Origin: Gallionella sp.
GTDB taxonomy: Bacteria > Pseudomonadota > Gammaproteobacteria > Burkholderiales > Gallionellaceae
Assembly (NCBI GenBank): GCA_013044075.1
Contig: JABEVG010000030.1
Coordinates: forward strand, 1 to 64,000
Length of the DNA: 64,000 nucleotides
Direction: 5' to 3'
Part shown: piece after piece, positions 29,375-31,847 of the stretch
How the letters are laid out: each line of letters starts with the position of its first letter
How positions within the stretch are numbered: position 1 is the stretch's first letter
Notes under the pieces: generated by a model
Database searches by the model: none
Seen by the model: only the letters and a program-made list of their open reading frames with translations
What the model was told of the DNA's origin: nothing
Translations under genes and position numbers: made by a program

Positions 29375-30910
29375 TCACAACTGCGGATGGGCCCGTTCGG
29401 CATTGTTGTGCAACTTGTTCAAGGCGTTCAGATACGCCTTGGCTGATGCCACTACGATGTCGGTATCCGCACCCTGACCGTTGACGATGCGCCCGCCCTT
29501 GGACAGGCGCACCGTGACCTCGCCCTGCGCATCCGTGCCGCTGGTGATGTTGTTCACCGAGTACAGTTGCAACTCGGTGCCGCTGGACACGATCTTTTCG
29601 ATAGCCTGAAATGTGGCATCGACCGGCCCGCCACCCTGCATCTCCGCCTCGTGTTCGGTGTTGCCTATACTCATCACGACCTTGGCGACGGGCAAAATTC
29701 CGGTCTCGCAGTGCGCGCGCAAGGACACCAGACGGTAATGCTCGCTGACCTTGGTCACCGCCTCCTCGCTTACCAGAGCCTGCAAGTCCTCGTCGTATAT
29801 CTCGTGCTTGCGGTCGGCCAGTTCTTTGAAACGATTAAAGGCGGCAACAAAATCTTCTTCGCTGGCAAACTCGATATTCAATGCGGCAAAACGCTGGCGC
29901 AAGGCGTTGCGCCCGGACAACTTGCCCAAGCTCAATTTGTTGGCATTCCAGCCCACGTCTTCGGCACGCATGATCTCGTAGGTCTCGCGGTGTTTGAGCA
30001 CGCCGTCCTGATGGATGCCGGACTCGTGCGCGAACGCGTTCGCACCCACGATGGCCTTGTTCGGCTGCACCGGATAGCCGGTGATACTCGACACCAGCTT
30101 CGAGGTCGGCACGATCTGCGTGGCGTCGATGCGGGTGTCCAGATTGAAGATGTCACGGCGCGTACGCACCGCCATCACGACTTCTTCCAACGAGGCGTTA
30201 CCGGCACGTTCGCCCAAGCCATTGATAGTGCATTCGACCTGACGCGCACCATTCAACACGGCGGACAAGGAGTTGGCCACCGCCAAACCCAGATCGTTGT
30301 GGCAATGCGTGGACCAGATCACCTTGCCGGAATCCGGCACGCGGGCGATCAGTTGCCGCATGCGTTCGCCCCAGGCGAAAGGAATGGAATAGCCCACTGT
30401 GTCGGGCACATTGAGCGTCTTGGCTCCCGCCTTGATGACTTCGTCGAACACCTGCACCAGAAAATCCATGTCAGAGCGCACCGCGTCCTCGGCGGAGAAC
30501 TCCACATCGTCGGTGTATTCCAACGCCCACTTCACGGCCTGCACGGCGCGTTCCAACACTTGGTCCTGGCTCATGCGCAACTTATGTTGCATGTGGATAG
30601 GGCTGGTGGCGATGAAGGTGTGTATGCGTCCCGATTTAGCGGGCTTAATCGCCTCACCGGCACGGCGCACATCATTCTCGCTGGCGCGCGCCAAGGAGCA
30701 CACGGTGGCCCCGGTGATGATCTCCGCCAAGGATTGCACCGCCGCAAAATCTCCGGGACTCGCCGCCGCGAAACCCGCTTCGATCACATCCACGCCCAGT
30801 TTTTCCAATTGGCGTGCGATGCGTATCTTCATTTCGCGGGTCATCGCCGCGCCGGGACTCTGCTCGCCATCGCGCAACGTGGTATCAAAAATAATTAACT
30901 TGTTAGACAT
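29375..30910 (-). CDS. leuA: 2-isopropylmalate synthase
   Basis: [87 protein letters not shown]. Confidence 0.97.
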
Positions 30911-30989
30911 GACTTGCTCCTGCAAATAGACATAACCTGCGACGCTTGTATGAAGTCGCCGCGCTTGCTTACTTTTTTGGGGGAAATAG

Positions 30990-31070
30990 TTAGCGCGCGC
31001 CGCGCAGCAGTAGCGCGGCCAGCAGGCTGAACGTGGAATGAAGCAAAGCGATGTGCGTGGAAAAATGCAT
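30990..31070 (-). CDS. Candidate Leu-rich leader peptide upstream of leuA ([26 protein letters not shown])
   Basis: 26 codons, 7 Leu including CTA-CTG-CTG run; TAATAT -10 only 7 nt before ATG; stem-loop between it and leuA. Confidence 0.4.
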
Positions 31071-31097
31071 GGGCTGGATATTAACAGTTTTGTTCAT

Positions 31098-31847
31098 TCA
31101 TGCAACAGGATGAGCGTTTTTGCGTCTGCGCACGAACCACATCACGAAACCCGATAGGGCGTAGGCCAAAAACAAACCGAACAACACACCCGGCGGGTAA
31201 CTCGAAATGAGAATAAAAACAATCGCGATCAAAAAAATCACCAGGAACGGTACGCTCTTGCGCATATTGAAATCTTTGAAGCTGTAGAACGGCAAGTTAC
31301 TGACCATACTCAGACCAGCAAACACCGCGATAGCCGCCGCATACCAGCGCACCGATTCACCTTTGAAACCGTAATCCAGCATCACCCAGACAAACCCGGC
31401 GACCAACGCCGCCGCCGCAGGACTCGGCAAGCCTTGAAAATAGCGTTTATCGACCACATCGATGTTGGTATTGAAGCGCGCCAGGCGCAATGCCGTGGCA
31501 CAGCAATAAATGAAAGCGGCGAACCAGCCCCATTTGCCCAAGCCCTTCAATGCCCATTCATACACCACCAAGGACGGGGCGACACCGAACGAAACCATGT
31601 CTGACAAACTGTCGTACTCCGCCCCGAATTCGCTCTGGGTGTGAGTCAGACGCGCGACCCGACCATCCAGACCGTCCAGCACCATGGCAATAAAAATCGC
31701 CACAGCGGCGATCTCGAATTTATTGTTCATGGCCTGGACGATGGCGTAAAAACCGGCAAACAAAGCCCCCGTGGTAAACAGATTGGGGAGCAAATAAATG
31801 CCGCGTTTGCGCAGCGTCATCGGTTTGCGTGTATTGAATTCGTCCAT
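31098..31847 (-). CDS. pssA: CDP-diacylglycerol-serine O-phosphatidyltransferase
   Basis: GIYLLPNLFTTGALFAGFYAIVQAMN; DGLDGRVARLTHTQSEFGAEYDSLSDMVSFG. Confidence 0.95.
   Translation of the reverse strand: MDEFNTRKPMTLRKRGIYLLPNLFTTGALFAGFYAIVQAMNNKFEIAAVAIFIAMVLDGLDGRVARLTHTQSEFGAEYDSLSDMVSFGVAPSLVVYEWALKGLGKWGWFAAFIYCCATALRLARFNTNIDVVDKRYFQGLPSPAAAALVAGFVWVMLDYGFKGESVRWYAAAIAVFAGLSMVSNLPFYSFKDFNMRKSVPFLVIFLIAIVFILISSYPPGVLFGLFLAYALSGFVMWFVRRRKNAHPVA

Follow-up and report, generated by a model that had tools for sequence, protein, structure and literature searches.

On the minus strand of the 64,000-nucleotide stretch of Gallionella DNA analyzed here (the window), the 187-nt gap between pssA and the downstream gene leuA holds a short leucine-rich open reading frame (ORF) which, by a slight balance of the evidence, we take to be a leucine-responsive cis-regulatory leader of leuA, that is, a leaderless sensor of leucine supply whose readout is most plausibly Rho dependent. 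The gene proposed to be controlled, leuA (29375–30910, minus strand), encodes a 2-isopropylmalate synthase (NCBIfam, E 1.7e-264), and among the LeuA proteins of the genome collection those of Gallionella MAGs come closest, with identity up to 90%. The upstream ORF (31098–31847, minus strand; stop codon 31100–31098) lies outside the leader unit and is presumably pssA (phosphatidylserine synthase), a name given from synteny together with the sequence. From 5′ to 3′, the gap contains a promoter, the leader ORF, CTATTTCCCCC, a GCGGCGAC...GTCGC hairpin, the leuA Shine-Dalgarno (SD) sequence AGGAG (30917–30921, minus strand), and the leuA ATG at 30910, which is 79 nt from the end of the leader ORF. 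The leader ORF itself (26 codons, predicted leaderless; 30990–31070, minus strand) begins with ATG at 31070 and stops at 30992–30990. An earlier reading of the sequence only had pointed to this leucine-rich ORF and its start codon; we saw both again in the sequence, and the ORF is conserved in relatives. A second ATG in the same frame lies at 31097, immediately past the pssA stop codon, and would make the ORF 35 codons long, but in the Gallionellaceae comparison it is the ATG at 31070, not the one at 31097, that relatives have in common.

The leader ORF is probably translated. Among 80 leuA loci compared, 48 Gallionellaceae-type sequences, the window included, have a comparable leader at the same place. 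Conservation of the peptide in related genomes, which the sequence-only reading had suggested as a check, is clear in this set: the leader ATG is invariant in 45/45 distinct Gallionellaceae versions, and over the first 20 codons of these 45 versions pN/pS is 0.215 in the reading frame of the leader, compared with 1.37 and 2.26 when the two alternative frames are read. Furthermore, the leader is kept where the upstream sequence differs (for example in L019, L028, and L029), and it therefore belongs with leuA.

Comparable leaders are widely distributed at leucine synthesis genes. Using a layout of −35 TTG, −10, 5–10 nt, ATG, and a Leu-rich ORF, and with the compared genomes assigned to order and class by inference from where GTDB places Gallionella, we found leaders in 35/69 same-order (Burkholderiales-like) leuA upstream regions and in 4/29 regions of a wider class sample, versus 1/798 control windows; a recognizable leader is missing in about half of the sampled same-order leuA regions. 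More leaders were found by eye among the 29 wider-class regions, with peptides ending in -RLLP or -RLPR and TATAGT or TATATT 6–8 nt from the ATG, and some further orders of gammaproteobacteria have comparable leaders as well. When a 24-mer pattern representing the leader 3′ end, YTGCTGCTGCGCNNNGCGCGCTRA, was searched in 300 same-order genomes, it gave 33 matches in 32 of them (0 matches for the reversed-pattern control), and all 31 inspected matches precede a 2-isopropylmalate synthase gene. One genome has two copies of the leader: the first precedes a leuA_bact-type gene, a leuA with 69% identity, and the second a synthase gene of the PRK03739/leuA_yeast type. The presence of the same element before two non-orthologous synthase types is the best evidence that the leader serves leucine synthesis and not a locus. 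Taken as a whole, the comparisons strongly support the earlier proposal of a Leu-rich leader peptide with a leaderless start and a role at leuA.

Some loci depart from this arrangement. In the Gallionella-type MAGs L015, L016, L021, and L024, leader and promoter are both gone, and leuA lies about 66–95 nt after pssA. These losses, like the missing leader in about half of the same-order regions, count against the regulatory reading. The Sideroxydans-type loci L045 and L046 carry an insertion of ~90 nt inside the leader 3′ end, with a CTGCGCGTCGCGCGC hairpin sequence at its far end. At L212 (genome G391), where the synthase gene is of the leuA_yeast type, a second small ORF, likewise rich in Leu/Ile (MRIIPLISIVLSRLLSGRRASRPW...), lies between the leader and the gene.

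The leader ORF is preceded by a conserved promoter. The sequence-only reading described TTGCAT-16-TAATAT with the −10 element ending 7 nt from the ATG, and this is what we find: the −35 TTGCAT (31100–31105, minus strand) overlaps the first base of the pssA stop codon and is separated by 16 nt from the −10 TAATAT (31078–31083, minus strand), which lies 7 nt before the leader ATG. A generic consensus promoter scan did not list the promoter of the window leader, whose support comes from conservation, the pattern in relatives being TTG, 17 nt, TATATT or TATAGT, 6–9 nt, ATG. TTG at a 17-nt spacer is found in 39/51 non-redundant beta-type leaders, a set that was partly chosen on spacing, so that its 6–10 nt range from −10 to ATG is less independent, and in 28/40 Gallionellaceae, with the 16-nt spacer in 11/40. 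These 40 Gallionellaceae loci were gathered by the first codons of the ORF, without use of the promoter, and 39 of them have a perfect −10-like hexamer 6–8 nt before the leader ATG. The Methylophilaceae leaders encode entirely different peptides and have TATATT mostly 9 nt before the ATG. Among loci found through the 3′-end motif, inspection by eye gave TATATT or TATAGT 6–9 nt before the ATG in 22/30 and close variants in 6 more. The leader −35 overlaps the end of pssA (31098–31105), and in Gallionella relatives it is the PssA tail -PIA before the stop codon (CCCATTGCCTGA) that carries the TTGC; promoter selection may therefore shape the PssA C terminus.

The spacing between this promoter and the ORF is the basis for a predicted leaderless start. 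Since transcription would begin 6–7 nt after the −10 element, the start site would be on or adjoining the leader AUG, and we predict that the 5′ end of the leader mRNA is at the AUG or within about 3 nt of it. SD-like 4-mers precede the leader ATG in only 1/51 beta-type, 1/22 gamma-type, and 0/40 Gallionellaceae leaders, and leuA itself is preceded by one in 43/51 beta-type and in all Gallionellaceae loci.

The end of the leader ORF forms a hairpin, hp1 (GCGCG-GCG-CGCGC; 30993–31005, minus strand), which the sequence-only reading did not mention. It lies over the last codons, those for the C-terminal -LLLRxxR, and ends directly before the stop codon; in relatives it is placed likewise or has the stop codon inside its loop. 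Of the leader hairpins it is the one most closely bound to the ORF. Among 51 beta-type leaders 88%, and among 22 gamma-type leaders 91%, have a high-score perfect hairpin at the ORF end; the share is 16% at control positions and 7% at leuA stops. The inner stems (GCGC/GCGC, CGCG/CGCG, CGCC/GGCG, TGCC/GGCA, CCGC/GCGG, and GCCC/GGGC) represent compensatory changes, and the natural terminal codons of the leader give a stronger fold than synonymous substitutes do (mean z −0.85). From these stem variants we show that hp1 covaries and that the last Leu codon runs into its 5′ arm. A functionless ORF next to a chance promoter match has in its favor only the general expectation that short ORFs arise; the pN/pS values, the excess over control windows, the 24-mer matches, hp1, and the promoter spacing all refute this, leaving it a negligible chance.

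Not all features of the leader are those of a plain leucine counter. The non-Leu residues HSTFSLL of the Gallionellaceae peptide are under strong purifying selection, and this N-terminal part is conserved beyond what a Leu counter would need, which counts against a plain Leu-sensor reading. The Leu codons of the run are furthermore mostly the common CUG rather than rare codons, which also counts against the reading we prefer. The peptide might instead act itself, either by arresting the ribosome while still nascent or as a small hydrophobic peptide working in trans, and both the selection on HSTFSLL and the LLLRxxR C terminus kept across families would fit. However, each family has an entirely different N-terminal part, and the C-terminal conservation is at the DNA level and coincides with hp1; we regard an action of the peptide as decidedly improbable.

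Directly after the leader stop codon, a 20-nt segment (30970–30989, minus strand), with a CCCCC run at 30983–30979 that was also absent from the sequence-only reading, is predicted to be unpaired and is rut-like in relatives. In the 20 nt after the stop, the C/G ratio is 6.1 in beta-type leaders versus 1.36 in gamma-type leaders, and at least 7 C with at most 2 G are found in 67% of beta-type leaders versus 0/56 leuA stops and 0/202 other stops. These 20 nt are the least paired part of the beta-type leaders. The gamma-type leaders are without the C-rich segment, yet keep hp1; in seven of them (L154, L157, L163, L164, L171, L172, and L175) a small hairpin motif, CCTGGCGAGG or CCCTGGCGAGGG, lies shortly past the stop. 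Farther downstream in the window is hp2 (GCGGCGACTTCATACAAGCGTCGC; 30939–30962, minus strand), with the stem GCGAC (30959–30955)/GTCGC (30943–30939) and no U-tract. The sequence-only reading had noted this hairpin between the ORF and leuA, and it is real and conserved as a structure: hp2 is the strongest local hairpin of beta-type leaders, typically from ~27–36 to 50–64 nt past the stop (mean fold z −1.5), and only its structure is kept, the sequence being variable.

Ribosome-mediated attenuation had been proposed for this locus, and the Leu leader at leuA bears out much of that proposal; the textbook hairpin switch to a terminator is unsupported. Terminator-like sites occur at shuffle level in relatives, in 3/51 beta-type (shuffles 5%) and 4/22 gamma-type leaders (shuffles 8%), and the leader on the minus strand of the window has no intrinsic terminator, so that an intrinsic-terminator readout was rejected. 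In classical attenuation of the E. coli leuL/trpL type, hp1 would be the 1:2 hairpin, followed by a 2:3 antiterminator and a 3:4 terminator. The position of hp1 agrees with this, with the control codons in or adjoining arm 1 and the stop codon between or after the arms, and a few gamma-type leaders do have a hairpin followed by UUUU. The 3′ arm of hp1, however, pairs with the downstream untranslated region no better than it does in shuffles (mean z −0.07 beta, +0.34 gamma), and a 2:3 antiterminator is unsupported as a feature shared across families. In the consensus fold of the Gallionella clade, leader CUGCG pairs with CGCAG and CGCGC with GCGCG downstream, and a switch specific to this clade is possible. 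The mutually exclusive hairpins that the sequence-only reading wished to see in folding are unsupported outside that clade, and classical attenuation is improbable.

In a second scheme, that of translational attenuation, the free leader fold would block initiation at leuA, and a ribosome stalled on the Leu codons would open the leuA SD sequence, a mode of control suggested before for uORFs of the leader type and for the LEU element of Actinobacteria (PMC1262725). The lack of an intrinsic terminator and the SD sequence of leuA are consistent with such control, as is complementarity between the ORF and the SD sequence in the single cases L166, L175, and L179. Against it, pairing of the leader ORF with the leuA SD sequence does not exceed that of synonymous-codon shuffles in gamma-type (mean z −0.01) or beta-type leaders (mean z +0.25) and was rejected as a family feature; only the Gallionellaceae leaders give a slightly negative value (mean z −0.44). 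Pairing of the post-stop segment with the SD sequence, suggested by L101 and L114, was likewise rejected, being no better than with mismatched partners. Translational attenuation is unlikely. With no terminator above shuffles and no general pairing, both the textbook attenuator and the LEU-element scheme fail for the family as a whole.

The absence of an intrinsic terminator favors Rho or a translational readout, and a C-rich, G-poor, unpaired, entry-like segment without a U-tract makes Rho the most economical terminating factor. The segment is nevertheless short for a rut site and is absent from gamma-type leaders; we therefore give Rho itself a chance just short of even, with translational control next. 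In the Rho-dependent reading, transcription would begin at or ~3 nt from the leader AUG, as the promoter spacing suggests, and a ribosome would start at once on the leaderless mRNA and read the short ORF, whose codons end in a Leu run followed by Arg codons. With ample Leu-tRNA, the ribosome would reach the stop codon and leave, hp1 would fold, the C-rich unpaired segment would be exposed, and transcription would end before or early in leuA, most likely through Rho. When Leu-tRNA is scarce, the ribosome would stall on the Leu run and block hp1, and through coupling and a changed RNA state leuA would be transcribed. No conserved alternative pairing explains in what way a ribosome stalled upstream of the C-run could keep Rho from acting, which counts against this reading. 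More tentatively, these leaders may form a widespread leucine leader class of beta- and gammaproteobacteria, built of a leaderless Leu ORF and hp1, in which a C-rich Rho entry segment replaces the terminator in the beta-type and leucine gates Rho, possibly aided by the nascent peptide.

Searches of known families returned no counterpart of the leader: Rfam 15 gave no match at gathering score in the window and 20 loci, and a search of the leader with E up to 10 brought up nothing but a CRISPR repeat, at chance level, on the opposite strand; four leader peptides had no meaningful Pfam or NCBIfam match. ORF finders that rely on SD sequences tend to miss leaderless ORFs. In the open-licence PMC papers searched, a leader of this kind is undescribed for beta- or gammaproteobacteria, and a survey of terminator-based attenuators itself states that it misses Rho-dependent cases (PMC2965389). 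Attenuators with a leucine leader and regulatory sORFs that are leaderless have both been described before, and it is the variant at leuA here that appears to be new. If the conserved family has both properties, amino-acid attenuation in beta- and gammaproteobacteria would be wider than catalogued, and leaderless translation would gain an old regulatory role in Proteobacteria; the family would also be a clear test case for ribosome stalling that gates Rho.

Among known systems, leuL of leuABCD in E. coli and Salmonella, where a leader peptide is combined with terminator and antiterminator hairpins (PMC6123439), shares the short Leu-rich ORF before leuA and a hairpin at the ORF end. Unlike leuL, the leader here lacks an SD sequence, an intrinsic terminator, and a general 2:3 partner; its start is predicted to be at the 5′ end, and a C-rich segment follows the stop. 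Campylobacter LeuL is also similar, a 28-aa leader before leuABCD whose C-terminal end is encoded by Leu codons, but it belongs to another class and was predicted with a ribosome binding site and with transcripts that end shortly past the stop codon (PMC3847290). The actinobacterial LEU element (PMC1262725) is likewise a leader ORF of leuA that contains a run of Leu codons and lacks an obvious terminator; its Leu run pairs with the leuA SD sequence, and the element forms a pseudoknot, whereas pairing of the ORF with the SD sequence is unsupported in the leader here. The leaderless poly-Cys sORFs of mycobacteria (Canestrari et al., 2020, as cited in PMC9094748) are leaderless regulatory sORFs with a run of the sensed residue; they concern cysteine, Actinobacteria, and other genes. 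Finally, Sinorhizobium meliloti trpL/rnTrpL, which differs in responding to tryptophan and in having an attenuator terminator, provides within a proteobacterium an attenuator RNA whose 5′ end is the leader AUG (PMC7298713), the arrangement that we predict for the leuA leader.
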